Part shown: piece after piece, positions 3,450 through 64,000 of the stretch
How positions within the stretch are numbered: the first letter of the stretch is position 1
Layout: the number at the start of each line of letters is the position of its first letter
Origin: Pagrus major
Taxonomy: Eukaryota > Chordata > Actinopteri > Spariformes > Sparidae
Length of the DNA stretch: 64,000 nt
Assembly: GCF_040436345.1 (NCBI RefSeq)
Contig: NC_133219.1
Location: 19,433,458 to 19,497,457 of the forward strand
Reading direction: 5' to 3'
The notes under the pieces: model-generated
Told to the model about the DNA's origin: nothing
Database searches by the model: none
What the model saw: only the letters and a program-made list of their open reading frames with translations
Made by a program: the position numbers and the translations under genes

Positions 3450-3916
3450 TATCTAGAATCCACCTGCAGCCAACTGAACTCTAACATGTGTTTCCGAGAT
3501 GAGTATGTCTATGGATATACTCATCTATGGAGAATAGAGTACCTAAAACATAGATCATATAGTAAATCCATGGGTTAGTTGCAGAATAGATCAACTCAAA
3601 GGAATCTTCTGTTGCAGAGCACACACAACTATGCCCCTGCAGGCCAGCTGAGTAAAAGCCATAGAGACAGCCATCCCCCTAGACACCTCACCAATGAAAG
3701 CCTTTTTAAGGCCTAGGCTTTTTTGAGGGAAGCTCAACACGGAAGAACAAGCGAGCATACAGGATATTATTGTAGGCCTTACATTTGAACCACAGTGGTT
3801 AGCTAACCTAGCCCATGTGGCTAACTAGTTGGATGCTATTTAAGTGAACCCTAATTGGCTTCATCTATCGCAAATGTGTGCTTACTTGTGGGTCAGCCGA
3901 AGCCAATAAAAGCTGA

Positions 3917-42623
<38,707 letters not shown>

Positions 42624-46753: not shown

Positions 46754-47388
46754 ATGACTATGAGGATGTTGACGGTGATGATGTGATGAAGACTATCTCG
46801 CATGCTTTTCTATGGGCCTCTGTGTTGTCAGTGCAGAGTGGCTGCCTTTTGTATGTAGCTGGGAGAGGACTACGAGGGGCGCTTGTTGACTGTGAGCATC
46901 AAGAGTGACTTCAGGGCTTCAGTTATAGCCTGCGTGTCACTGCCGAGTCCACCTGACAGAGTAGAGGCAGTTCAAAGAGTGAACGAGCTCCAGCAGGGGA
47001 GCACTCACACAGTGTAAAGCACAAACACACAGGGATGGAGGGCGGACTGATGCCTCTGATGTAGCTGCACAATAAGTTGACTTTAGTGTCAAATCTAACA
47101 GACAATCCAGTCAGAGACAGCAGCAGTTTATCACCGTAGATTAAGAAAACGCTTCTATTATAATTATTGATCAGGGCTGCACAGTTATGACCAAGATGAC
47201 CATCCTCATGTCGACACATGATTGATCTCCAGAATCATTCTCCTTTATTCATCTTATGTCAGAAAAACTGTTTCCAGACGCTTTTTACATTCTTGGCTAA
47301 ATAAAAATGCACTGATTCCACTGATAAATCATGATTCTGTGTGACTGATCAAAGCTAAAATCATGATAGAAAATGAGTAATTGTGCAG
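46754..47388. repeat. 635-base duplicated segment, left copy (right copy 63366-64000)
   Basis: Aligned base for base with 63366-64000 at a constant offset of 16,612, with no net indel and only about three mismatches seen. Its right portion is a small element with inverted ends, AGGGCTGCACA (about 47,168) and TTGTGCAGCCCT (about 47,381-47,392). A 98-codon minus-strand frame (46923-47219) is present in both copies but has no recognisable domain. Confidence 0.9.
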
Positions 47389-47534: not shown

Positions 47535-48626
47535 CTTTCTCCAGCCAGTGCCGAAGTTGCACTGACAACACTGAGTTGGCTTCTCTTCGTAGGGTTTCTT
47601 TCACTCTTTCTCCCATTCCCTCTGTTTCCAACCTTATTCAATCATTTCTCTGCAGTTGGCTCTTTCTACTTTCCCTTTGTCTCTTTTCGTCCGTTTGGGT
47701 TTCTTCTGTATATTGATATTAATCATCTAGTTCTCTGATTCTTCGGATTATTGCTCTGTTCTCTTACGTGCTACACGTGTTTCTATAACTTCAAGACAAT
47801 GTGTTAAGGTGTTATCAATAAAACCATCATTTAAATAGAAAAGCGATTCAGTTTCTGTGTTTACAAGCATTGTATTTTTATTGATTGTAGTAACTGGGAA
47901 AATGTTGGAACTGCTTTTGACTAGAATATTTTCTAAGCAGGTAGAAAACATACAAGTTTTTTAACACAACTTAAAGTGAGTCCACAGTTATCCAGCATCA
48001 ATCCTGAAGATCATCCAGCACAGACTCGTGCTATTGGGTTGTTGGGACAGTTAACATAAACACACAGGAACAAACAGCAGCTCCACCGTAATGAATGTTC
48101 AAGAATGATTAAATTAATGCTGCTGGGAAATAATAAAGGTTAATGTTAGAGATCAAGATTAAAGCAAACACTGCTTTACAATTCAATATCAACAATTCAA
48201 AGACATTATCTGCTTTGCACTCAACATTTTTTATACATATTATAGGAAATGAGACTTCTGACATGTGGAACGTGGTGACATTTAAGTAACGTTTAACTGT
48301 ACTTACTCATCAATTTTGATGTCAATTTAAACAATTAGTACCAAGAAAAAATGTCATAGACTGTCTTTAAGAGTCTTTAGTGTCAACTAGCAGAATCATT
48401 CACTCAACAGTGAGTCAGGTGACGATGAACCTTTAGTTTCACCTTCAGCATCACATTAGAGAGAAGTCTTTCCATTATAACTGGACCACTAATCCTCACT
48501 GCTAAACCAGACTGTGAATACGATACAATAATGTTTAGCTCAGCTGACACTGACAGTTCTCATAAAATGATGCCCACATGTTACAAACAGCTTTCATATG
48601 AATCTCATTGACAACTGAAATGTGCA

Positions 48627-48836
48627 ATGTTATATTTTATTTTTCAAGAGCAAGTACCATCCACCAGCTGTGAAAATCATGATGAACCTAAAGACAAAAT
48701 ACAACTGAATTTATCATCAACTGCATCACAGCACACAGAGTTAAACAAAATGGAGGAGGCAGTCTGCAGCAACACTCCCAAAACTAATCAGTTACAGACT
48801 AAATCAGGAAATAATCAAATCTCTTGTGTCCTCTGA
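48627..48836 (+). other. Short open frame conserved in all four array units (69 codons)
   Basis: A plus-strand frame with an internal stretch EQVPSTSCENHDEPKDKIQL and end NNQISCVL, also at 52264-52473, 56084-56293 and 59745-59954. It begins just after a TTATTTTTCAAG sequence that resembles a splice acceptor. The frame is open in all four units, but substitutions among copies are as often amino-acid-changing as silent, so there is no sign of protein selection. It lies beyond the TRIM poly(A) signal, on the opposite strand. No domain is recognised; it is probably non-coding. Confidence 0.2.
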
Positions 48837-48925
48837 GTAAAACGACGGCCCCCAGAGTGAACATAATCACAGTATCTTGATAAACTACATTGTGACTGAC
48901 AGACTTAAAACAAGAGCCTCGACAC

Positions 48926-48931
48926 TTTATT
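48926..48931 (-). terminator. Poly(A) signal AATAAA of TRIM gene 1
   Basis: Minus-strand AATAAAGTGTCG about 597 bases after the stop codon. The same signal occurs at 52561-52566, 56383-56388 and 60043-60048, always 593-597 bases after the stop of the corresponding TRIM gene, which suggests a 3'UTR of about 0.6 kb. Confidence 0.55.
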
Positions 48932-49299
48932 ATGACCTGAGAAACATAAACATCTTTATCAACTGTTATCTTTATGAGAATAAAATGTACTTTGTTAAAG
49001 AGATACTGCCAACAGATCAGCAATGTTAGTAAACATAAAACAACATGACAGAATATTAAGTTGAAATAATTTCAATTGGAAGTGGAAAGTCAAAAATAAA
49101 AAGTTTCTGATAAACTAACATTGATTAAAAACATTGATTGGGAGGAACTGAGACTCAAGAAAAGAACAAACCAACATGAAAAACACTTTGGATGATTCAT
49201 TTCAGACTGAAGAACAGTTAGAAAACATTTCTGTGACCTTTGACACCAAATCAAATCTGCAGAAGATGTTGAGGAACAAAAAGATCAAGAAACTGATGA

Positions 49300-49492
49300 A
49301 CAATGTTTGTACTATAACACTAACCTTAGCCCAACCTAAATTCACACCTTACCACTAACCTGAACCAGGACCTGAGAAATGACACCTTGTTTGCCTCTTT
49401 AGGACCGGGCTCTGGTCCTCATGACGACTACTGGTCCTGACAAGGTCAGTGTTTATAGCCTGTAAGAAACACACACACACACACACACACTG
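49300..49492. repeat. Fish interspersed repeat with CA tail in the TRIM 3' flank
   Basis: ACACTAACCTTAGCCC ... GGTCCTGACAAGGTCAGTG ... TGTAAGAAACACACACAC resembles a repeat very common in teleost introns that ends in a CA microsatellite. It is present at the same place in all four units (near 52.95, 56.77 and 60.44 kb), so it was there before the units multiplied. Confidence 0.5.
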
Positions 49493-49527
49493 CAGACAAC
49501 AACACTTATTCCTAACATTCCTGAACA

Positions 49528-50949
49528 TCACAGAGAAATATCAGTCTGACAGATTTTGATATCAGCAGTTTTAGCATCACCAGCCTCTCCAATACTGAAA
49601 TATGGGAAGAGTTTCTCAGTGAAAGTGTCTCTGTGAGTGTAGATGTGAGTCGTGTCTTCAGGGTCGTAGAAGGACACCTCCCCACTGTCATAGTCCAGCT
49701 GGACTCTGATCCTCTGGAGACTCTTCTTCACTCTGACAGTCTCACCAGCAACATTAGTGTATTTTCCACTGCGATGCAATAAACACCAGATTCCATATTT
49801 TGGTGTAGTAAATCTCTTTCCCTTCCTGTCAACTGACTCTTTGACCAAACCTACAAGCCAGCCAGGATGATCTCCCACCTCCACCTCCCAGCTGTGTTTC
49901 CCTGAGCTGAAGCCCTCAGAGCCATGAACAATCCTATAATTAGTGTTTCTCTCTGGATTGTCAGGAAGCTGCTGATATGTGACTCCACATCTCACACTGG
50001 TCAGATCATCAGACAGATGGAGCCAGCGGTTTGCAGTGTTTGGGTCCAGAATGACAGGACTGAAGTGGACCTTGTCCTTCATCTTCTCCCAGACTCTGAA
50101 GGACAGGTTGCCCAGGTGTTTGGCCACATCTATCAGCGCTCCTGAGACCAGCTGTGGATCTGACAGTGAGCACTGGACTCTGGCTCTGGTCTGAGTGGCT
50201 TTATAACTGCTGAGGAATGGCACGTTGTGTTTCTGCAGCTCTTCTTCAACAGCACAGATACTGTCTGACAGAGAGGAGATCTGCTCCTCCATCATCTTCA
50301 TCTCTCTGCTGATAGTCTTCCCCTTCTGCTCCTCTTCCTCCCTCAGAGCTGCCAGTCTGGACTCCTCTTCCTCTTTCAGGAACTGGTGGAGCTTGTTGAA
50401 CTCTGCTCTGATCTGCCTCTCTGTGGACGACAGCTGCTTCTTGGAGTGTCGAATCACTTCATTGTATGTTTTCTCCACATGTTTGTAATTGTTCCTTTTG
50501 TCCTGTAGAGACTTTAAGTCAGATTTCAGCTGCTCCTTCAGCTCACTGACTGCTTGTTCTACAGGAACCACCTTGTGAGTCTGGTGGAGAGAAAACTCAC
50601 AGACAGGACACACAGCTCTCTGCTCGTCCTCACAGAACCAATAAGAGACTTCTGGGTGTTTATCACACACGACCTCCTTCTCTCCTTTTTCTGTTTCAGG
50701 TGGTCCAGTGTTCAGTCTCTCAGCAAAGGAGTCAGCCAGTTCCTTCAGTGTAAAGTTCACATCTGGATCATCATTCAACGGTTTCCTTTTACAAATGGGA
50801 CAGTTTTTGTTTTTAGCTTGTTCCCAGAATTTTTGCAGGCAGCTTGAACAGAAGCTGTGGTTGCAGCTAAGAGACACAGGATCTCTGAGAGTCTCTGAAC
50901 ACACATGGCAGCTCAGGAAACTTTCAAGAACAGAACTTTTCTCAGCCAT
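49528..50949 (-). CDS. TRIM E3 ubiquitin ligase 1 (RING, B-box, coiled coil, B30.2), intronless
   Basis: 473 codons without introns. RING C3HC4 with Cys14, Cys17, Cys29, His31, Cys34, Cys37, Cys50, Cys53 should bind two zincs and an E2. B-box 2 (Cys95, His98, Cys106, Cys114, Cys117, His122, His125) follows, then a coiled coil (about 130-250) for dimerisation and a PRY/SPRY (B30.2) domain from about residue 302 (DPNTANRWLHLSDD) to the end for target binding. Resembles the single-exon TRIM35-like / zinc-binding protein A33-like group of fish; the subfamily is uncertain. It lacks six residues (present as VEVKE in the other copies) just before the B-box. The start is the Met beginning MAEKSSVLESF, shared in position by all copies, with ISRE-like sites 150-200 bases upstream. 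Probably a cytosolic, interferon-inducible antiviral or immune-signalling ligase. Confidence 0.93.
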   Translation of the reverse strand: MAEKSSVLESFLSCHVCSETLRDPVSLSCNHSFCSSCLQKFWEQAKNKNCPICKRKPLNDDPDVNFTLKELADSFAERLNTGPPETEKGEKEVVCDKHPEVSYWFCEDEQRAVCPVCEFSLHQTHKVVPVEQAVSELKEQLKSDLKSLQDKRNNYKHVEKTYNEVIRHSKKQLSSTERQIRAEFNKLHQFLKEEEESRLAALREEEEQKGKTISREMKMMEEQISSLSDSICAVEEELQKHNVPFLSSYKATQTRARVQCSLSDPQLVSGALIDVAKHLGNLSFRVWEKMKDKVHFSPVILDPNTANRWLHLSDDLTSVRCGVTYQQLPDNPERNTNYRIVHGSEGFSSGKHSWEVEVGDHPGWLVGLVKESVDRKGKRFTTPKYGIWCLLHRSGKYTNVAGETVRVKKSLQRIRVQLDYDSGEVSFYDPEDTTHIYTHRDTFTEKLFPYFSIGEAGDAKTADIKICQTDISL

Positions 50950-51097
50950 TTGCTCTGATATGTGAACTATTGTTCAACAGCACGACTCACCAAATCTTTG
51001 TCTCTTTGATTAACAGTTTATGATCCTTCTGATTCCTGTTTATTGGAGAGATTCTTCATCCTGTAATGTCTCAGCTCTGTTCAGAAATGTCGACATC

Positions 51098-51109
51098 AGT
51101 TTCACTTTC
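51098..51109 (-). promoter_or_regulatory. ISRE upstream of TRIM gene 1 (proximal)
   Basis: Minus-strand GAAAGTGAAACT, an exact GAAANNGAAACY interferon-stimulated response element, 149 bases upstream of the ATG. Equivalent sites precede every gene of the array. Confidence 0.75.
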
Positions 51110-51137
51110 GTTGAAAGTAAATAAATGACAGCTGACA

Positions 51138-51147
51138 TTTCGTTTTC
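51138..51147 (-). promoter_or_regulatory. IRF/ISRE-like site upstream of TRIM gene 1 (distal)
   Basis: Minus-strand GAAAACGAAA, an exact GAAANNGAAA match, 28 bases further from the gene than the proximal ISRE. Conserved in all four units. Confidence 0.65.
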
Positions 51148-51150
51148 TCA

Positions 51151-51165
51151 CCAGCAGATGGCGCT
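51151..51165 (+). promoter_or_regulatory. CTCF-type core motif, unit 1
   Basis: CCAGCAGATGGCGCT fits the CTCF core CCASYAGRKGGCRSY at all 15 positions and lies directly behind the two ISRE sites. Binding is not shown. Confidence 0.55.
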
Positions 51166-52560
51166 TTGTGATCTATTAACACATTTTAAGGTAACTGTCC
51201 ACACATACAAAATAAAGTTTCATAAATACTGTTTACATGTTTTAGGAAATAATCACCATGATTCATGTTTGAAAAATTGTTTTAAATGTTTAATCATAAT
51301 TTCATTATATGACATGTACTCTCCCAAGATGGTGGAAATTGCTGTATAGTATTTTATTAATGCAACAACACTGAGTTGGCTTCTCTTCGTAGGGTTTCTT
51401 TCACTCTTTCTCCCATTCCCTCTGTTTCCAACCTTATTCAATCATTTCTCTGAAGTTGGCTCTTTCTACTTTCCCTTTGTCTCTTTTCGTCCGTTTGGGT
51501 TTCTTCTGTATATTGATATTAATCATCTAGTTCTCTGATTCTTCGGATTATTGCTCTGTTCTCTTACGTGCTACACGTGTTTCTATAACTTCAAGACAAT
51601 GTGTTAAGGTGTTATCAATAAAACCATCATTTAAATAGAAAAGTTTCTGTGTTTACAAGCATTGTATTTTTATTGATTGTAGTAACTGGGAAAATGTTGG
51701 AACTGCTTTTGACTAGAATATTTTCTAAGCAGGTAGAAAACATACAAGTTTTTTAACACAACTTAAAGTGAGTCCACAAGACTCAAGATTAAAGATTAAA
51801 GCAAACCCTGCTTTACAATTCAATATCAACAATTCAAAGACATTATCTGCTTTGCACTCAACATTTTTTATACATATTATAGGAAATGAGACTTCTGACA
51901 TGTGGAATGTGGCGACATTTAATTAATGTTTAGCTGTACTTACTCATCAATTTTGATGTCGATGTAAACAATTAGTACCAAGAAAAAATGTCATAGACTG
52001 TCTTCAAGTCTTCAGTGTCAACTAGCAGAATCATTCACTCGACAGTGAGTCAGGTGACGATGAGCCTTTAGTTTCACCTTCAGCATCACATTAGAGAGAA
52101 GTCTTTCCATTATAACTGGACCACTAATCCTCACTGCTAAACCAGACTGTGTGAATAAGATACAATAATGTTTAGCTCAGCTGACACTGACAGTTCTCAT
52201 AAAATGATGCCCACATGTTACAAACAGCTTTCATATGAATCTCATTGACAACTGAAATGTGTAATGTTATATTTTATTTTTCACGAGCAAGTACCATCCA
52301 CCAGCTGTGAAAATCATGATGAACCTAAAGACAAAATACAACTGAATTTATCATCAACTGCATCACAGCATACAGAGTTAAACAAAATGGAGGCGGCAGT
52401 CTGCAGCAACACTCCCAAAACTAATCAGTTAAAGACTAAATCAGGAAATAATCAAATCTCTTGTGTCCTCTGAGTAAAACGACGGCCCCAGAGTGAACAA
52501 ATCAGAGTATCTTGATACACTACATTGTGACTGACAGACTTAAAACAAGAGCCTCGACAC

Positions 52561-52566
52561 TTTATT
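52561..52566 (-). terminator. Poly(A) signal AATAAA of TRIM gene 2
   Basis: Minus-strand AATAAAGTGTCG about 593 bases after the stop codon, equivalent in position to the other three copies. Confidence 0.5.
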
Positions 52567-53158
52567 ATGACCTGATAAACATAAATATCTTTATCAACTG
52601 TTATCTTTATGAGAATCAAAATGTACTTTGTTAAAGAGATACTGCCAACAGATCAGCAATGTTAGTAAAAATAAAACAACATGACAGCATATTCAGTTGA
52701 AATAATCTCAATTGGAGGTGGAAAGTGAAAAATAAAAGTTTCTGATGAACTAACATTGATTAAAAACATTGATTGGGAGGAACTGAGACTCAAGAAAAGA
52801 ACAAACCAACATGAAAAACACTTTGAATGATTCATTTCAGACTGAAGAACAGTTAGAAAACATTTCTGTGACCTTTGACACCAAATCAAATCTGCAGAAG
52901 ATGTTGAGGAACAAAAAGATCAAGAAACTGATGAGCAATGTTTGTACTATAACACTAACCTAAGCCCAACCTAAATTCACAACTTACCACTAACCTGAAC
53001 CAGGACCTGAGAAATGACACCTTGTTTGCCTCTTTAGGACCGGGCTCTGGTCCTCATGACGACTACTGGTCCTGACAAGGTCAGTGTTTATAGCCTGTAA
53101 GAACCACACACATACACACACTGGAGACAACAACACTTATTCCTAACATTCCTGAACA

Positions 53159-54598
53159 TCACAGAGAAATATCAGTCTGACAGATTTTGACATCAGCAGT
53201 TTTAGCATCACCAGCATTTCCAATACTGAAATATGGGAAGAGTTTCTCAGTGAAAGTGTCTCTGCGAGTGCAGAGGTGAGTCGTGTCTTCATGGTCGTAG
53301 AAGGACACCTCCCCCCTGTCATAGTCCAGCTGGACTCTGATCCTCTGGAGACTCTTCTTCACTCTGACAGTCTCACCATCACCATTAGTGTATTTTCCAC
53401 TGCGATGCATAAAACACCAGATTCCATATTCTGGTGAAGCAGATAACTCTCCCTTCCTGTCAACTGACTCTTTAACCAAACCTACATTCCAGCTAGGATG
53501 AATTCCCACCTCCACCTCCCAGCTGTGTTTCCCTGAGCTGAAGCCCTCAGAGCCAAAAACATTGACATACTTAGTGTTTCTCTCTGGATTGTCAGGAAGC
53601 TGCTGATATGTGTCTCCACATCTCACACTGGTCAGATCATCAGACAGATGGAGCCAGGGGTTTGCAGTGTTTGGGTCCAGAATGACAGGACTGAAGTGGA
53701 CCTTGTCCTTCATCTTCTCCCAGACTCTGAAGGACAGGTTCCCCAGGTGTTTGGCCACATCTATCAGCGCTCCTGAGACCAGCTGTGGATCTGGCAGTGA
53801 GCACTGGACTCTGGCTCTGGTCTGAGTGGCTTTATAACTGCTGAGGAATGGCACGTTGTGTTTCTGCAGCTCTTCTTCAACAGTACAGATACTGTCTGAC
53901 AGAGAGGAGATCTGCTCCTCCATCATCTTCATCTCTCTGCTGATAGTCTTCCCCTTCTGCTCCTTTTCCTCCCTCAGAGCTGCCAGTCTGGACTCCTCTT
54001 CCTCTTTCAGGAACTGGTGGAGCTTGTTGAACTCTGCTCTGATCTGCCTCTCTGTGGACAACAGCTGCTTCTTGGAGTGTTCAATCACTTCATTGTATGT
54101 TTTTTTCACATGTTTGTATTTGTTCCTCTTGTCCTGTAGAGACTTTAAGTCAGATTTCAGCTGCTCCTTCAGCTCACTGACTGCTTGTTCTACAGGAACC
54201 ACCTTGTGAGTCTGGTGGAGAGAAAACTCACAGACAGGACACACAGCTCTCTGCTCGTCCTCACAGAACCAATAAGAGACTTCTGGGTGTTTATCACACA
54301 CGACCTCCTCTTTCACCTCCACCTTCTTCTCTCCTTTTTCTGTCTTAGGTGGTCCAGTATTCAGTCTCTTAGCAAAGGCATTGGCCAGTTCCTTCAGTGT
54401 GAAGTTCACATCTGGATCATCATTCAACGGTTTTCTTTTACAAATGGGACAGTTTTTGTTTTCAGCTTGTTCCCAGAATTTTTGCAGGCAGCTTGAACAG
54501 AAGCTGTGGTTGCAGCTCAGAGACACAGGATCTCTGAAAGTCTCTGAACACACATGGCAGCTCAGGAAACTTTCAACAAGAGCAATTTTCTCAGCCAT
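53159..54598 (-). CDS. TRIM E3 ubiquitin ligase 2, intronless
   Basis: 479 codons with the same architecture as its neighbours: RING beginning CHVCSETFRDPV, B-box 2 beginning CDKHPEVSYWFC, coiled coil, and B30.2 starting DPNTANPWLHLSDD. All zinc ligands are present and the frame is intact, so it should be a working E3 ligase. Its B30.2 loops differ from copy 1 at the segments reading CGDTYQQ, NTKYVNVFGSEG, GIHPSWNVG, GELSASPEYG and CFMHRSGKYTNGDGE. LDYDRGEVSF and HLCTRRDTF place its 3' end with copy 4. Intronless TRIM35-like / A33-like family; probably interferon-inducible from its upstream ISRE pair. Confidence 0.93.
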   Translation of the reverse strand: MAEKIALVESFLSCHVCSETFRDPVSLSCNHSFCSSCLQKFWEQAENKNCPICKRKPLNDDPDVNFTLKELANAFAKRLNTGPPKTEKGEKKVEVKEEVVCDKHPEVSYWFCEDEQRAVCPVCEFSLHQTHKVVPVEQAVSELKEQLKSDLKSLQDKRNKYKHVKKTYNEVIEHSKKQLLSTERQIRAEFNKLHQFLKEEEESRLAALREEKEQKGKTISREMKMMEEQISSLSDSICTVEEELQKHNVPFLSSYKATQTRARVQCSLPDPQLVSGALIDVAKHLGNLSFRVWEKMKDKVHFSPVILDPNTANPWLHLSDDLTSVRCGDTYQQLPDNPERNTKYVNVFGSEGFSSGKHSWEVEVGIHPSWNVGLVKESVDRKGELSASPEYGIWCFMHRSGKYTNGDGETVRVKKSLQRIRVQLDYDRGEVSFYDHEDTTHLCTRRDTFTEKLFPYFSIGNAGDAKTADVKICQTDISL

Positions 54599-54746
54599 TT
54601 GCTCTGATATGTGAATTATTCTTCAACAGCACGACTCACCAAATCTTTGTCTCTCTGATTAACAGTTTATGATCCTTCTGATTCCTGTTTATTGGAGAGA
54701 TTCTTCACCCTGTAATGTCTCAGCTCTGTTCAGAAATGTGGAAATC

Positions 54747-54758
54747 AGTTTCACTTTC
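54747..54758 (-). promoter_or_regulatory. ISRE upstream of TRIM gene 2 (proximal)
   Basis: Minus-strand GAAAGTGAAACT, 149 bases upstream of the ATG. Identical to the site of copy 1. Confidence 0.75.
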
Positions 54759-54786
54759 CTTGAACGTAAATTAATGACAGCTGACG

Positions 54787-54796
54787 TTTCGTTTTC
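54787..54796 (-). promoter_or_regulatory. IRF/ISRE-like site upstream of TRIM gene 2 (distal)
   Basis: Minus-strand GAAAACGAAA, exact GAAANNGAAA match with the same spacing as in copy 1. Confidence 0.65.
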
Positions 54797-54799
54797 TCA

Positions 54800-54814
54800 C
54801 CAGCAGATGGCGCT
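54800..54814 (+). promoter_or_regulatory. CTCF-type core motif, unit 2
   Basis: CCAGCAGATGGCGCT, identical to the motif in units 1 and 3. Confidence 0.55.
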
Positions 54815-56382
54815 TTGTGATCTATTAACAGATTTTAAGGTAACTGTCCACACATACAAAATAAAATGCAAGTTTCATAAATACTGTTTACATGTTTTAG
54901 GAAATAATCACCATGATGATTCATGTTTGAAAAATTGTTTTAAATGTTTAATCATCATTTCATTATATGACATGTACTCTCCCAAGATGGTGGAAATTGC
55001 TGTAGAGTATTTTATTAATGCAACAACACCGAGTTGGCTTCTCTTCATAGGGTTTCTTTCACTCTTTCTCCCATTCCCTCTGTTTCCAACCTTATTCAAT
55101 CATTTCTCTGCAGTTGGCTCTTTCTACTTTCCCTTTGTCTCTTTTCGTCCGTTTGGGTTTCTTCTGTATATTGATATTAATCATCTAGTTCTCTGATTCT
55201 TCGGATTATTGCTCTGTTCTCTTACGTGCTACACGTGTTTCTATAACTTTAAGACAATGTGTTAAGGTGTTATCAATAAAACCATAATTTAATTAGAAAA
55301 GCGATTCAGTTTCTGTGTTTACAAGCATTGTATTTTTATTGATTGTAGTAACTGGGAAAATGTGGGAACTGCTTTTGACTAGAATATTTTCTAAGCAGGT
55401 AGAAAACATACAAGTTTTTTAACACAACTTAAAGTGAGTCCACAGTTATCCAGCATCAATCCTGAAGATCATCCAGCACAGACTCGTGCTATTGGGTTGT
55501 TGGGACAGTTAACATAAACACACAGGAACAAACAGCAGCTCCACCGTAATGAATGTTCAAGAATGATTAAATAAATGCTGCTGGGAAATAATAAAGGTTA
55601 ATGTTAGAGATCAAGATTAAAGCAAACACTGCTTTACAATTCAATATCAACATTCAAAGACATTATCTGCTTTGCACTCAACATTTTTTATACATATTAT
55701 AGGAAATGAGACTTCTGACATGTGGAACGTGGTGACATTTAATTAACGTTTAGCTGTACTTACTCATCAATTTTAATGTCGATGTAAACAATTAATACCA
55801 AGAAAACATGTCATAGACTGTCTTTAAGAGTCTTTAGTGTCAACTAGCAGAATCATTCACTCGACAGTGAGTCAGGTGACGATGAACCTTTAGTTTCACC
55901 TTCAGCGTCACATTAGAGAGAAGTCTTTCCATTATAACTGGACCACTAATCCTCACTGCTAAACCAGACTGTGAATACGATACAATAATGTTTAGCTCAG
56001 CTGACACTGACAGTTATCATAAAATGATGCCCACATGTTACAAACAGCTTTCATATAAATCTCATTGACAACTGAAATGTGTAATGTTATATTTTATTTC
56101 TCAAGACCAAGTACCATCCACCAGCTGTGAAAATCATGATGAACCTAAAGACAAAATACAACTTAATTTATCATCAACTGCATCACAGCATACAGAGTCA
56201 AACAAAATGGAGGAGGCAGTCTGCAGCAACACTCCCAAAACTAATCAGTTACAGACCAAATCAGGAAATAATCAAATCTCTTGTGTTCTCTGAGTAAAAC
56301 GACGGCCCCCAGAGTGAACATAATCACAGTATCTTGATACACTACATTGTGACTGACAGACTTAAAACAAGAGCCTCGACAC

Positions 56383-56388
56383 TTTATT
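56383..56388 (-). terminator. Poly(A) signal AATAAA of TRIM gene 3
   Basis: Minus-strand AATAAAGTGTCG about 596 bases after the stop codon. Confidence 0.5.
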
Positions 56389-56983
56389 ATGACCTGAGAA
56401 ACATAAACATCTTTATCAACTGTTATCTTTATGAGAATCAAAATGTACTTTGTTAAAGAGATACTGCCAACAGATCAGCAACGTAAGTAAACATAAAACA
56501 ACATGACAGAATATTAAGTTGAAATAATTTCAATTGGAAGTGGAAAGTCAAAAATAAAAAGTTTCTGATAAACTAACATTGATTAAAAACATTGATTGGG
56601 AGGAACTGAGACTCAAGAAAACAACAAACCAACATGAAAAACACTTTGAATGATTCATTTCAGACTGAAGAACAGTTAGAAAACATTTCTGTGACCTTTG
56701 ACACCAAATCAAATCTGCAGAAGATGTTGAGGAACAAAAAAATCAGGAAACTGTTGAACAATGTTTGTACTATAACACTAACCTTAGCCCAACCTAAATT
56801 CACACCTTACCACTAACCTGAACCAGGACCTGAGAAATGACACCTTGTTTGCCTCTTTAGGACCGGGCTCTGGTCCCCATGACGACTACTGGTCCTGACA
56901 AGGTCAGTGTTTATAGCCTGTAAGAAACACACACAAATACACACACTGCAGACAACAACATCTATTCCTAACATTCCTGAACA

Positions 56984-58423
56984 TCACAGAGAAATATCAG
57001 TCTGACAGATTTTGATATCAGCAGTTTTAGCATCACCAGCCTCTCCAATACTGAAATATGGGAAGAGTTTCTCAGTGAAAGTGTCTCTGTGAGTGTAGAG
57101 ATGAGTCGTGTCTTCAGGGTCGTAGAAGGACACCTCCCCACTGTCATAGTCCAGCTGGACTCTGATCCTCTGGAGACTCTTCTTCACTCTGACAGTCTCA
57201 CCAACACCATTAGAGTATTTTCCACTGCGATGCGTTAAACACCAGATTCCATATTTTGGTGAAGCAGATAACTCTCCCTTCCTGTCAACTGACTCTTTAA
57301 CCAAACCTACATTCCAGTCAGGATGATCTCCCACCTCCACCTCCCAGCTGTGTTTCCCTGAGCTGAAGCCCTCAGAGCCCAGAACAATGGTATACTTAGT
57401 GTTTCTCTCTGGATTGTCAGGAAGCTGCTGGTCTGTGTCTCCCTGTCTCACACTGGTCAGATCATCAGACAGATGGAGCCAGCGGTTTGCAGTGTTTGGG
57501 TCCAGAATGACAGGACTGAAGTGGACCTTGTCCTTCATCTTCTCCCAGACTCTGAAGGACAGGTTGCCCAGGTGTTTGGCCACATCTATCAGCGCTCCTG
57601 AGACCAGCTGTGGATCTGACAGTGAGCACTGGACTCTGGCTCTGGTCTGAGTGGCTTTATAACTGCTGAGGAATGGCACGTTGTGTTTCTGCAGCTCTTC
57701 TTCAACAGCACAGATACTGTCTGACAGAGAGGAGATCTGCTCCTCCATCATCTTCATCTCTCTGCTGATAGTCTTCCCCTTCTGCTCCTCTTCCTCCCTC
57801 AGAGCTGCCAGTCTGGACTCCTCTTCCTCTTTCAGGAACTGGTGGAGCTTGTTGAACTCTGCTCTGATCTGCCTCTCTGTGAACAACAGCTGCTTCTTGG
57901 AGTGTTCAATCACTTCATTGTATGTTTCCTCCACATGTTTGTATTTGTTCCTCTTGTCCTGTAGAGACTTTAAGTCAGATTTCAGCTGCTCCTTCAGCTC
58001 ACTGACTGCTTGTTCTACAGGAACCACCTTGTGAGTCTGGTGGAGAGAAAACTCACAGACAGGACACACAGCTCTCTGCTCGTCCTCACAGAACCAATAA
58101 GAGACTTCTGGGTGTTTATCACACACGACCTCCTCTTTCACCTCCACCTTCTTCTCTCCTTTTTCTGTCTCAGGTGGTCCAGTGTTCAGTCTCTCAGCAA
58201 AGGAGTCAGCCAGTTCCTTCAGTGTAAAGTTCACATCTGGATCAACATTCAACGGTTTCCTTTTACAAATGGGACAGTTTTTGTTTTTAGCTTGTTCCCA
58301 GAATTTTTGCAGGCAGCTTGAACAGAAGCTGTGGTTGCAGCTCAGAGACACAGGATCTCTGAAAGTCTCTGAACACACATGGCAGCTCAGGTAACTTTCA
58401 ACACGAGCAATTTTCTCAGCCAT
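56984..58423 (-). CDS. TRIM E3 ubiquitin ligase 3, intronless
   Basis: 479 codons; RING (MAEKIARVESYLSCHVC start, all eight ligands), B-box 2, coiled coil and B30.2 are intact. The B30.2 loops read RQGDTDQQ, NTKYTIVLGSEG, GDHPDWNVG, GELSASPKYG and CLTHRSGKYSNGVGE; the 3' end (LDYDSGEVSF, HLYTHRDTF) agrees with copy 1, as expected for two type A units. Predicted cytosolic E3 ligase of the fish intronless TRIM35-like / A33-like group. The leader resembles copies 2 and 4 but has a short deletion (TTGGAGATTC instead of TTGGAGAGATTC). Confidence 0.93.
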   Translation of the reverse strand: MAEKIARVESYLSCHVCSETFRDPVSLSCNHSFCSSCLQKFWEQAKNKNCPICKRKPLNVDPDVNFTLKELADSFAERLNTGPPETEKGEKKVEVKEEVVCDKHPEVSYWFCEDEQRAVCPVCEFSLHQTHKVVPVEQAVSELKEQLKSDLKSLQDKRNKYKHVEETYNEVIEHSKKQLLFTERQIRAEFNKLHQFLKEEEESRLAALREEEEQKGKTISREMKMMEEQISSLSDSICAVEEELQKHNVPFLSSYKATQTRARVQCSLSDPQLVSGALIDVAKHLGNLSFRVWEKMKDKVHFSPVILDPNTANRWLHLSDDLTSVRQGDTDQQLPDNPERNTKYTIVLGSEGFSSGKHSWEVEVGDHPDWNVGLVKESVDRKGELSASPKYGIWCLTHRSGKYSNGVGETVRVKKSLQRIRVQLDYDSGEVSFYDPEDTTHLYTHRDTFTEKLFPYFSIGEAGDAKTADIKICQTDISL

Positions 58424-58572
58424 TTGATCTGATATGTGAATTATTCTTCAACAGCACGACTCACCATATCTTTGTCTCTCTGATTAACAGTTTATGATCC
58501 TTCTGATTCCTGTTTATTGGAGATTCTTCACCCTGTAATGGCGTCTCAGCTCCATTCAGAAATGTGGAAATC

Positions 58573-58584
58573 AGTTTCACTTTC
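58573..58584 (-). promoter_or_regulatory. ISRE upstream of TRIM gene 3 (proximal)
   Basis: Minus-strand GAAAGTGAAACT, 150 bases upstream of the ATG. Confidence 0.75.
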
Positions 58585-58612
58585 CTTGAACGTAAATTAA
58601 TGACAGCTGACA

Positions 58613-58622
58613 TTTCGTTTTC
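58613..58622 (-). promoter_or_regulatory. IRF/ISRE-like site upstream of TRIM gene 3 (distal)
   Basis: Minus-strand GAAAACGAAA, same spacing as in the other units. Confidence 0.65.
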
Positions 58623-58625
58623 TCA

Positions 58626-58640
58626 CCAGCAGATGGCGCT
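58626..58640 (+). promoter_or_regulatory. CTCF-type core motif, unit 3
   Basis: CCAGCAGATGGCGCT, all 15 core positions matched. Confidence 0.55.
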
Positions 58641-60042
58641 TTGTGATCTATTAACACATTTTAAGGTAACTGCCCAGACATACAAAATAAAATGCAAGTT
58701 TCATAAATACTGTTTACATGTTTTAGGAAATAATCACCATGATGATTCATGTATGAAAAAATGTTTTAAATGTTTAATCATAATTTCATTATATGACATG
58801 TACTCTCCCAAGATGGTGAAAATTGCTGTAGAGTATTTTATTAATGCAACAACACTGAGTTGGCTTCTCTTCGTAGGGTTTCTTTCACTCTTTCTCCCAT
58901 TCCCTCTGTTTCCAACCTTATTCAATCATTTCTCTGCAGTTGGCTCTTTCTACTTTCCCTTTGTCTCTTTTCGTCTGTTTGGGTTTCTTCTGTATATTGA
59001 TATTAATCATCTAGTTCTCTGATTCTTCGGATTTTTGCTCTGTTCTCTTACGTGCTACACGTGTTTCTATAACTTCAAGACAATGTGTTAAGGTGTTATC
59101 AATAAAACCATCATTTAAATAGAAAAGTTTCTGTGTTTACAAGCATTGTATTTTTATTGATTGTAGTAACTGGGAAAATGTTGGAACTGCTTTTGACTAG
59201 AATATTTTCTAAGCAGGTAGAAAACATACAAGTTTTTTAACACAACTTAAAGTGAGTCCACAAGACTCAAGATTAAAGATTAAAGCAAACCCTGCTTTAC
59301 AATTCAATATCAACAATTCAAAGACATTATCTGCTTTGCACTCAACATTTTTTATACATATAGGAAATGAGACTTCTGACATGTGGAATGTGGTGACATT
59401 TAATTAATGTTTAGCTGTACTTACTAATCAATTTTGATGTCGATATAAACAATTAGTACCAAGAAAAAATGTCATAGACTGTCTTCAAGTCTTCAGTGTC
59501 AACTAGCAGAATCATTCACTTGACAGTGAGTCAGGTGACGATGAACCTTTAGTTTCACCTTCAGCGTCACATTAGAGAGAAGTCTTTCCATTATAACTGG
59601 ACCACTAATCCTCACTGCTAAACCAGACTGTGTGAATACGATACAATAATGTTTAGCTCAGCTGACACTGACAGTTATCATAAAATGATGCCCACATGTT
59701 ACAAACAGCTTTCATATAAATCTCATTGACAACTGAAATGTGCAATGTTATATTTTATTTTTCAAGAGCAAGTACCATCCACCAGCTGTGAAAATCATGA
59801 TGAACCTAAAGACAAAATACAACTGAATTTATCATCAACTGCATCACAGCATACAGAGTCAAACAAAATGGAGGAGGCAGTCTGCAGCAACACTCCCAAA
59901 ACTAATCAGTTACAGACTAAATCAGGAAATAATCAAATCTCTTGTGTCCTCTGAGTAAAACGACGGCCCCAGAGTGAACATAATCACACTATCTTGATAC
60001 ACTACATTGTGACTGACAGACTTAAAACAAGAGCCTCGACAC

Positions 60043-60048
60043 TTTATT
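60043..60048 (-). terminator. Poly(A) signal AATAAA of TRIM gene 4
   Basis: Minus-strand AATAAAGTGTCG about 596 bases after the stop codon. Confidence 0.5.
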
Positions 60049-60643
60049 ATGACCTGAGAAACATAAACATCTTTATCAACTGTTATCTTTATGAGAATAA
60101 AATGTACTTTGTTAAAGAGATACTGCCAACAGATCAGCAACGTAAGTAAACATAAAACAACATGACAGAATATTAAGTTGAAATAATCTCAATTGGAAGT
60201 GGAAAGTCAAAAATAAAAAGTTTCTGATAAACTAACATTGATTAAAAACATTGATTGGGAGGAACTGAGACTCAAGAAAACAACAAACCAACATGAAAAA
60301 CACTTTGGATGATTCATTTCAGACTGAAGAACAGTTAGAAAACATTTCTGTGACCTTTGACACCAAATCAAATCTGCAGAAGATGTTGAGGAACAAAAAA
60401 AATCAGGAAACTGTTGAACAATGTTTGTGCTATAACACTAACCTTAGCCCAACCTAAATTCACACCTTACCACTAACCTGAACCAGGACCTGAGAAATGA
60501 CACCTTGTTTGCCTCTTTAGGACCGGGCTCTGGTCCCCATGACGACTACTGGTCCTGACAAGGTCAGTGTTTATAGCCTGTAAGAAACACACACAAACAC
60601 ACACACTGCAGACAACAACATCTATTCCTAACATTCCTGAACA

Positions 60644-62080
60644 TCACAGAGAAATATCAGTCTGACAGATTTTGATATCAGCAGTTTCAGCATCACCAGC
60701 CTCTCCAATACTGAAATATGGGAAGAGTTTGTCAGTGAAAGTGTCTCTGTAAGTGCAGAGGTGAGTCATGTCTTCAGGGTCGTAGAAGGACACCTCCCCC
60801 CTGTCATAGTCCAGCTGGACTCTGATCCTCTGGAGACTCTTCTTCACTCTGACAGTCTTATTAAGACCATTAGTGTATTTTCCATCACCATGCGATAAAC
60901 ACCAGATTCCACATTCTGGTGAAGCAGATATCTTTCCCTTCCTGTCAACTGACTCTTTAACCAAACCTACAAGCCAGTCAGGATGATCTCCAACCTCCAC
61001 CTCCCAGCTGTGTTTCCCTGAGCTGAAGCCCTCAGAGCCCAGAACTTGGGCATACATAGTGTTTCTCTCTGGATTGTCAGGAAGCTGCTGCTTTGTGTCT
61101 CCCTGTCTCACACTGGTCAGATCATCAGACAGATATAAACAGCGGTGTGCAGTGTTTGGGTCCAGAATGACAGGACTGAAGTGGACCTTGTCCTTCAACT
61201 TCTCCCAGACTCTGAAGGACAGGTTCCCCAGGTGTTTGGCCACATCTATCAGCGCTCCTGAGACCAGCTGTGGATCTGACAGTGAGCACTGGACTCTGGC
61301 TCTGGTCTGAGTGGCTTTATAACTGCTGAGGAATGGCACGTTGTGTTTCTGCAGCTCTTCTTCAACAGCACAGATACTGTCTGACAGAGAGGAGATCTGC
61401 TCCTCCATCATCTTCATCTCTCTGCTGATAGTCTTCCCCTTCTGCTCCTCTTCCTCCCTCAGAGCTGCCAGTCTGGACTTCTCTTCCTCTTTCAGGAACT
61501 GGTGGAGCTTGTTGAACTCTGCTCTGATCTGCCTCTCTGTGGACAACAGCTGCTTCTTGGAGTGTTCAATCACTTCATTGTATGTTTCCTCCACATGTTT
61601 GTATTTGTTCCTCTTGTCCTGTAGAGACTTTAAGTCAGATTTCAGCTGCTCCTTCAGCTCACTGACTGCTTGTTCTACAGGAACCACCTTGTGAGTCTGG
61701 TGGAGAGAAAACTCACAGACAGGACACACAACTCTCTGCTCGTCCTCACAGAACCAATAAGAGACTTCTGGGTGTTTATCACACACGACCTCCTCTTTCA
61801 CCTCCACCTTCTTCTCTCCTTTTTCTGTTTCAGGTGGTCCAGTGTTCAGTCTCTCAGCAAAGGAGTCAGCCAGTTCCTTCAGTGTGAAGTTCACATCTGG
61901 ATCATCATTCAACGGTTTCCTTTTACAAATGGGACAGTTTTTGTTTTCAGCTTGTTCCCAGAATTGTTGCAGGCAGCTTGAACAGAAGCTGTGGTTGCAG
62001 CTCAGAGACACAGGATCTCTGAAAGTCTCTGAACACACATGGCAGCTCAGGAAACTTTCAAAGAGAGCTCTCTCAGCCAT
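60644..62080 (-). CDS. TRIM E3 ubiquitin ligase 4, intronless
   Basis: 478 codons, starting MAERALFESFLSCHVC, one residue shorter at the N-terminus than copies 2 and 3. RING, B-box 2 and coiled coil are intact. The B30.2 domain is the most divergent of the four: the PRY start reads DPNTAHRCLYLSDD (Trp changed to Cys), and loops read RQGDTKQQ, NTMYAQVLGSEG, GKISASPECG and CLSHGDGKYTNGLNKT. LDYDRGEVSF groups its 3' end with copy 2 (type B). Predicted interferon-inducible E3 ligase of the intronless TRIM35-like / A33-like group, possibly with a different target from its neighbours. Confidence 0.93.
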   Translation of the reverse strand: MAERALFESFLSCHVCSETFRDPVSLSCNHSFCSSCLQQFWEQAENKNCPICKRKPLNDDPDVNFTLKELADSFAERLNTGPPETEKGEKKVEVKEEVVCDKHPEVSYWFCEDEQRVVCPVCEFSLHQTHKVVPVEQAVSELKEQLKSDLKSLQDKRNKYKHVEETYNEVIEHSKKQLLSTERQIRAEFNKLHQFLKEEEKSRLAALREEEEQKGKTISREMKMMEEQISSLSDSICAVEEELQKHNVPFLSSYKATQTRARVQCSLSDPQLVSGALIDVAKHLGNLSFRVWEKLKDKVHFSPVILDPNTAHRCLYLSDDLTSVRQGDTKQQLPDNPERNTMYAQVLGSEGFSSGKHSWEVEVGDHPDWLVGLVKESVDRKGKISASPECGIWCLSHGDGKYTNGLNKTVRVKKSLQRIRVQLDYDRGEVSFYDPEDMTHLCTYRDTFTDKLFPYFSIGEAGDAETADIKICQTDISL

Positions 62081-62231
62081 TTGCTCTGATATGTGAATTA
62101 TTCTTCAACAGCACGACTCACCAAATCTTTGTTTCTTTGAGTAACAGTTTATGATCCTTCTGATTCCTGTTTATTGGAGAGATTCTTCACCCTGTAATGG
62201 CGTCTCAGCTCCGTCCGGAAATGTCGACATC

Positions 62232-62243
62232 AGTTTCATTTTC
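62232..62243 (-). promoter_or_regulatory. ISRE upstream of TRIM gene 4 (proximal)
   Basis: Minus-strand GAAAATGAAACT. The spacer differs (AT rather than GT) but the site still fits GAAANNGAAACY; 152 bases upstream of the ATG. Confidence 0.7.
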
Positions 62244-62271
62244 CTTGAAAGTTAATAATTGACAGCTGACA

Positions 62272-62281
62272 TTTCGTTTTC
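62272..62281 (-). promoter_or_regulatory. IRF/ISRE-like site upstream of TRIM gene 4 (distal)
   Basis: Minus-strand GAAAACGAAA, unchanged from the other units although the sequence around it has decayed. Confidence 0.65.
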
Positions 62282-62284
62282 TCA

Positions 62285-62299
62285 CCAGCAGATTGTGCT
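62285..62299 (+). promoter_or_regulatory. Degraded CTCF-type motif, unit 4
   Basis: CCAGCAGATTGTGCT: the GGCG of the core has become TGTG, which should abolish CTCF binding. Positional equivalent of the intact motif in units 1-3. Confidence 0.45.
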
Positions 62300-62424
62300 T
62301 TGTGATCTATTAACACAAAATAAAATGCAAGTTTCATTAATACTGTTTACATGTTTTAGGAAATAATCACCATGATGATTCATGTGTGAAATAGCCAAAG
62401 TGCTGTAGAGTATTTTATTAATGC

Positions 62425-63365: not shown

Positions 63366-64000
63366 ATGACTATGAGGATGTTGACGGTGATGATGTGATG
63401 AAGACTATCTCGCATGCTTTTCTATGGGCCTCTGTGTTGTCAGTGCAGAGTGGCTGCCTTTTGTACGTAGCTGGGAGAGGACTACGAGGGGCGCTTGTTG
63501 ACTGTGAGCATCAAGAGTGACTTCAGGGCTTCAGTTATAGCCTGCGTGTCACTGCCGAGTCCACCTGACAGAGTAGAGGCAGTTCAAAGAGTGAACGAGC
63601 TCCAGCAGGGGAGCACTCACACAGTGTAAAGCACAAACACACAGGGATGGAGGGCGGACTGATGCCTCTGATGTAGCTGCACAATAAGTTGACTTTAGTG
63701 TCAAATCTAACAGACAATCCAGTCAGAGACAGCAGCAGTTTATCACCGTAGATTAAGAAAACGCTTCTATTATTATTATTGATCAGGGCTGCACAGTTAT
63801 GACCAAGATGACCATCCTCATGTCGACACATGATTGATCTCCAGAATCATTCTCCTTTATTCATCTTATGTCAGAAAAACTGTTTCCAGACGCTTTTTAC
63901 ATTCTTGGCTAAAAAAAAATGCACTGATTCCACTGATAAATCATGATTCTGTGTGACTGATCAAAGCTAAAATCATGATAGAAAATGAGTAATTGTGCAG
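63366..64000. repeat. 635-base duplicated segment, right copy (cut by the window end)
   Basis: Second copy of 46754-47388, about 99.5% identical by eye. It is truncated only because the window stops, so the duplication extends further right by an unknown amount. Confidence 0.9.

Follow-up and report, generated by a model that had tools for sequence, protein, structure and literature searches.

The DNA described here is a stretch of 64,000 nucleotides from Pagrus major (contig NC_133219.1, positions 19,433,458 to 19,497,457 of the forward strand), called the window in the following and numbered from its first letter. It contains a tandem array of four TRIM genes, each preceded by the same interferon-type promoter sites. 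Fish have large, fast-changing TRIM families. The array and its genes lie as follows:

Positions 47565..62391, array as a whole: tandem array with units spaced ~3.63-3.83 kb.
Positions 49528..50949, minus strand: TRIM gene copy 1, 473 amino acids in one uninterrupted open reading frame (ORF) with RING, B-box, weak coiled coil and PRY-SPRY.
Positions 53159..54598, minus strand: TRIM gene copy 2, ORF of 479 amino acids.
Positions 56984..58423, minus strand: TRIM gene copy 3, ORF of 479 amino acids.
Positions 60644..62080, minus strand: TRIM gene copy 4, ORF of 478 amino acids.

In a domain profile search zf-C3HC4, zf-B_box, PRY and SPRY scored above their curated cut-offs in all four proteins. 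The coiled coil (TRIM_CC) was weak, with 20.0, 20.7 and 23.0 bits against a cut-off of 30 in three of the four proteins, copy 3 being unlisted. By RING, B-box and PRY-SPRY the four genes are of class IV type (C-IV), with a weakly recognised coiled coil. The PDB matches listed (60 of 184) are TRIM7, TRIM72, butyrophilins, pyrin, TRIM58 and TRIM21. Besides the four genes, no further TRIM pieces were detected in the window at E 1e-3. A search for relatives of the copy 2 protein gave pattern matches in 5 stretches of viral_contigs and 8 of genome_contigs. None of them was confirmed, which says little because both collections are viral or prokaryotic.

Two interferon-type sites, an interferon-stimulated response element (ISRE) and a second IRF-type site, were found upstream of every start codon. 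All of them lie on the minus strand, the coding strand of the TRIM genes:

Positions 51098-51109, minus strand: ISRE of copy 1, GAAAGTGAAACT, 149-160 bases before the ATG.
Positions 54747-54758, minus strand: ISRE of copy 2, GAAAGTGAAACT, 149-160 bases before the ATG.
Positions 58573-58584, minus strand: ISRE of copy 3, GAAAGTGAAACT, 150-161 bases before the ATG.
Positions 62232-62243, minus strand: ISRE of copy 4, GAAAATGAAACT, 152-163 bases before the ATG; the change falls within the free NN spacer.
Positions 51138..51147, minus strand: second IRF-type site of copy 1, GAAAACGAAA, 189-198 bases before the ATG.
Positions 54787..54796, minus strand: second IRF-type site of copy 2, GAAAACGAAA, 189-198 bases before the ATG.
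Positions 58613..58622, minus strand: second IRF-type site of copy 3, GAAAACGAAA, 190-199 bases before the ATG.
Positions 62272..62281, minus strand: second IRF-type site of copy 4, GAAAACGAAA, 192-201 bases before the ATG.

The preliminary description had placed this motif pair upstream of all four start codons, and motifs and positions agree with it. In each copy GAAAACGAAA lies 28 bases upstream of the ISRE, and the distances between motif and ATG vary by no more than 3 bases among the copies. The ISRE consensus, printed as AGTTTCN2TTTCN in PMC10287828, is present in the proximal promoter of 4/4 TRIM genes, with "proximal" measured relative to the ATG. The longer form RNGAAANNGAAACT is likewise matched by every copy. 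Each TRIM gene has one GAAA(G/A)TGAAACT, and these are the only four in the 64 kb, against 0.04 expected; none of 100 shuffles reached four. For GAAANNGAAACT four exact matches in 64 kb (0.34 expected) were obtained, none of them outside the four TRIM promoters. The short core GAAANNGAAA is less specific: 20 were counted in the window against 5.07 expected, eight of which make up the four pairs while 12 lie elsewhere.

Chance occurrence was assessed by dinucleotide shuffling of the 300 bp upstream of each gene, 5000 times per copy, using a simple ISRE matrix built from the consensus. The ISRE score was rarely matched, namely by 6, 6, 8 and 6 of 5000 shuffles for copies 1-4. Two or more GAAANNGAAA cores were reached by 10, 9, 6 and 10 shuffles, and the ISRE score together with two cores by 0/5000 for each copy. 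The promoters align and sit in duplicated units; they thus represent one ancestral promoter seen four times, copied by tandem duplication and not arisen in four independent events, and the chance figures should not be combined by multiplication over the copies.

At the start of the ISRE a STAT1-type site was recognised, according to the consensus for gamma-activated sites (GAS) in PMC10287828:

Positions 51106..51116, minus strand: GAS-type site of copy 1, TTTCAACGAAA, overlapping the ISRE; full TTTCNNNGAAA.
Positions 54756..54764, minus strand: GAS core of copy 2, TTCAAGGAA, overlapping the ISRE; outer T of the full consensus absent.
Positions 58582..58590, minus strand: GAS core of copy 3, TTCAAGGAA, overlapping the ISRE; outer T of the full consensus absent.
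Positions 62240..62250, minus strand: GAS-type site of copy 4, TTTCAAGGAAA, overlapping the ISRE; full TTTCNNNGAAA.

Hence copies 1 and 4 have the whole of TTTCNNNGAAA, and copies 2 and 3 hold the TTCNNNGAA core. The overlap is suggestive only, because TTCNNNGAAA is common: the window has 11 matches, with 15.43 expected. A GGTGAGT resembling a splice donor also precedes the ATG of each copy by ~40 bases (50985-50991 in copy 1, with equivalent positions in copies 2-4); by hand count the nearest acceptor-like CAG would give a 36-base intron, and this candidate was rejected.

The array consists of four class IV-type TRIM genes, each with its own copy of an ancestral interferon-type promoter; judged from the sequence, they are probably induced jointly. 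Sensing of interferon or virus would bring ISGF3 (STAT1-STAT2-IRF9) to the ISRE ~150 bases before the ATG, and IRF1, IRF3 or IRF7 would act on the second GAAANNGAAA site ~190 bases before the ATG. STAT1 dimers could possibly bind the GAS-type site overlapping the ISRE. Through these shared sites all four copies would be switched on together, perhaps with an antiviral function. Tandem duplication carried the promoter along, and the PRY-SPRY ends diverged. Comparable responses are described for other fish. Poly(I:C) raised most class IV TRIM genes in turbot, and trim35-14 was one of the genes that responded in vitro (PMC12263217); in flounder cells viral hemorrhagic septicemia virus (VHSV) raised TRIM35-12 and TRIM25 more than 2-fold (PMC7521715). 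A review reports that many finTRIMs are induced (PMC13030082). Several points weigh on the other side. VHSV lowered several other TRIMs in the same flounder cells (PMC7521715), and according to the review few fish TRIMs apart from TRIM25 are bona fide interferon-stimulated genes (PMC13030082). The second IRF-type site has no CT end as in a full ISRE, a motif match alone does not prove induction, and synonymous-only versus amino-acid-variable codons did not differ significantly between the protein domains (Fisher P=0.19).

The duplication itself is visible at the level of whole units. Two TRIM units at 47565-54932 match those at 55023-62391 as a 7.4-kb pair with 95.8% identity. The two-against-two site patterns among the four copies conflict (21, 14, 13), which rules against a single clean duplication history and makes gene conversion or a mixed history likely. 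Within the 250 bases before the ATG, 5/6 two-against-two sites group copies 1+4 and 2+3. Left of the array, 635 bases at 46754-47388 are repeated at 63366-64000, at the right edge of the window, with 632/635 identical positions. This repeat runs to the end of the window, so that a further duplicate of the flank, and perhaps of the array, may lie outside it.

For copy 4 the surroundings of the two sites had been described as decayed, with selection as the suggested reason for their survival. The surroundings have not decayed, and the selection is not supported. The gene-adjacent block of ~310 bp still shares ~94-95% identity with the other copies and has a single 26-base gap; homology then ends abruptly at ~62391, which looks like a duplication edge. 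Of the gapless promoter columns 24/282 vary, and 0/18 core motif positions do so (P=0.19). When only the 114 columns closest to the gene are counted, 16 of which vary, the invariance of the motifs gives a local P=0.051. Mean divergence among the copies amounts to 4.7% in the promoter, 2.4% in the 3' non-coding DNA and 2.3% in the coding part for RING, B-box and coiled coil (RBCC). Few columns vary at all, and the promoter diverges more than the 3' non-coding DNA; plain inheritance explains the retention of the motifs. Purifying selection on both sites in each copy therefore appears doubtful, if conceivable: the unchanged core positions with their local P value and the sole ISRE change, which falls in the free spacer, would agree with it, but the whole promoter block gives P=0.19, non-motif stretches are unchanged too (e.g. 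gapless columns -128 to -111), and the comparison has just four copies, which are closely related and conflict in their site patterns. Thus, of the former view of the array as an interferon-inducible unit, the ISRE at 4/4 genes, its inheritance by duplication and the class IV type of the genes are retained, and the hint of selection is dropped.

Inheritance alone would also leave the motifs in place if they were inert passengers, copied by duplication in front of genes that are constitutive or developmentally regulated. The P values given above and the greater divergence of the promoter compared with the 3' non-coding DNA are consistent with this. However, a full-scoring ISRE with two cores within 300 bp was not produced by any of the shuffles of any promoter, and class IV TRIM genes and finTRIMs are often responsive to poly(I:C) or virus (PMC12263217, PMC13030082). 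Inert motifs are considered quite improbable.

The copies diverge unevenly along the protein. The PRY-SPRY ends of TRIM proteins recognise targets. Amino-acid-variable codons among the four copies number 40/179 in PRY-SPRY and 25/293 elsewhere (Fisher P=4.9e-5), and the nucleotide divergence of PRY-SPRY (6.9%) exceeds the 3' non-coding baseline of 2.4%. The pooled ratio of nonsynonymous to synonymous differences per site (pN/pS), calculated from non-independent pairs, is 2.31 for PRY-SPRY, 0.49 for RING-B-box and 0.96 for the coiled coil. Positive selection on PRY-SPRY is suggested by these values but not proven, because the pairs are non-independent and the domain contrast mentioned above is not significant. 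The direction agrees with the positive selection described in the B30.2 domain of zebrafish trim35/hltr and btr, two of the sets which, with ftr, are expanded in fish (PMC3137616).

Next to the second IRF-type site a further element was identified, a match to the binding consensus of CTCF, a protein that organises chromatin:

Positions 51151..51162, plus strand: CTCF consensus of copy 1, CCAGCAGATGGC, 3 bp beyond the IRF site and in antisense orientation to the gene.
Positions 54800..54811, plus strand: CTCF consensus of copy 2, CCAGCAGATGGC, same 3-bp spacing from the IRF site.
Positions 58626..58637, plus strand: CTCF consensus of copy 3, CCAGCAGATGGC, same 3-bp spacing from the IRF site.
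Positions 62285..62296, plus strand: counterpart in copy 4, CTCF-like but changed at two core bases; score 9.27 against 20.32 with an approximate matrix.

The search pattern CCASYAGRKGGC comprises the first 12 letters of the human consensus CCASYAGRKGGCRS (14 letters, from chromatin immunoprecipitation on microarrays, ChIP-chip) quoted in PMC6746451. Exact matches in the window number 3 against 0.04 expected and lie exclusively at promoters 1-3, which fit the last two letters of the 14-letter consensus as well. If one mismatch is allowed, 8 are found against 2.28 expected, the five beyond promoters 1-3 lying at 27-40 kb; the promoter of copy 4 lacks the pattern at this tolerance too. With an approximate CTCF matrix, promoters 1-3 are the top three matches in the window (20.32 each, the next 14.97), and their score was reached by 0/5000 shuffles for each of them. 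The low score of copy 4, due to the two core changes, was reached by 41/5000 shuffles. The site of copy 4 may have been lost, or it may never have been there.

Such an arrangement could form a composite CTCF-IRF-ISRE promoter. In that case CTCF would keep the promoter open or poised, or connect it with a distant element that the copies share, and ISGF3 could then act at once; each duplicate would carry its own copy, with copy 4 at the edge of the array lacking the CTCF part. We consider this rather unlikely. The exact pattern and the highest matrix scores are confined to promoters 1-3, and in turbot most of the immune-gene promoters selected, those of class IV TRIMs among them, showed no differential accessibility, for which the authors suggest a poised state (PMC12263217); poised promoters of this kind would fit promoters held open by CTCF, a link which we infer ourselves. 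On the other hand, the sites are predicted with a human consensus and an approximate matrix, they represent one ancestral event, as for the ISRE, and the gene of copy 4 is intact despite its weak site. Furthermore, no minus-strand partner was present to the right of the sites among the matches listed (top 12 per strand; best 16, down to 8.94), and the five additional CTCF-like sites with one mismatch are found at 27-40 kb. That the duplicated TRIM unit carries a ready-made cassette of CTCF, IRF and GAS/ISRE sites within ~65-70 bp, so that a new duplicate would be born chromatin-open and interferon-responsive, is an unlikely extension of this idea. In clustered protocadherin genes there is one CTCF site per promoter. 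The array shares with them repeated genes with a CTCF-type promoter site; in contrast to them, it has adjoining interferon-type sites, its predicted CTCF site is antisense to the gene, and one of the four copies is without it. To see in these immune genes a protocadherin-like layout of one CTCF site per promoter, to which the edge copy is the exception, is similarly speculative.

Elsewhere in the window, translated pieces at ~3900-10300 resemble, by eye, exons of a CaMKII gene, and the best PDB matches of the piece at 10115-10261 are CaMKII beta and gamma chains. Near the left edge (~1060-1200) a long CA/TG dinucleotide repeat was seen in the translations. No RNA family reached its gathering threshold in the window.

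Teleost class IV TRIM sets, i.e. finTRIM (ftr), bloodthirsty-related (btr) and trim35/hltr genes, resemble the array in RING, B-box and PRY-SPRY, in clustered recent duplicates and in the concentration of amino-acid variation in PRY-SPRY (PMC3137616). This comparison is made at the level of the class, and PMC3137616 does not deal with promoter control. Human promoters with ISRE and GAS (PARP14, TRIM69, APOL6, UBE2L6) likewise have an ISRE near a STAT1-type site, and the interferon-induced genes behind them include a TRIM gene (PMC10287828). Unlike in these composite promoters, the predicted GAS of the array and the beginning of the ISRE have their GAAA in common, and only 2/4 copies have this GAS in full. 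In the mammalian Gbp, Ifit and Oas clusters chromatin contacts change on interferon treatment (PMC8857492); they are, like the array by prediction, gene clusters with an interferon response, but belong to different gene families.

Class IV TRIM genes in tandem that have interferon-type promoters are a known kind, and the CTCF-type site is the added feature; among the papers listed for a limited set of terms, none named CTCF sites at TRIM promoters in its title or abstract opening, and 'CTCF motif' was absent from those listed for teleost TRIM duplication. Copy 4, which is without the CTCF-type site but keeps the remainder, would provide a natural test of a role of CTCF. If the joint induction proposed here is true, the promoter would be part of the duplicating unit, and expansion of the array would multiply interferon-inducible effectors with varied target-binding ends.

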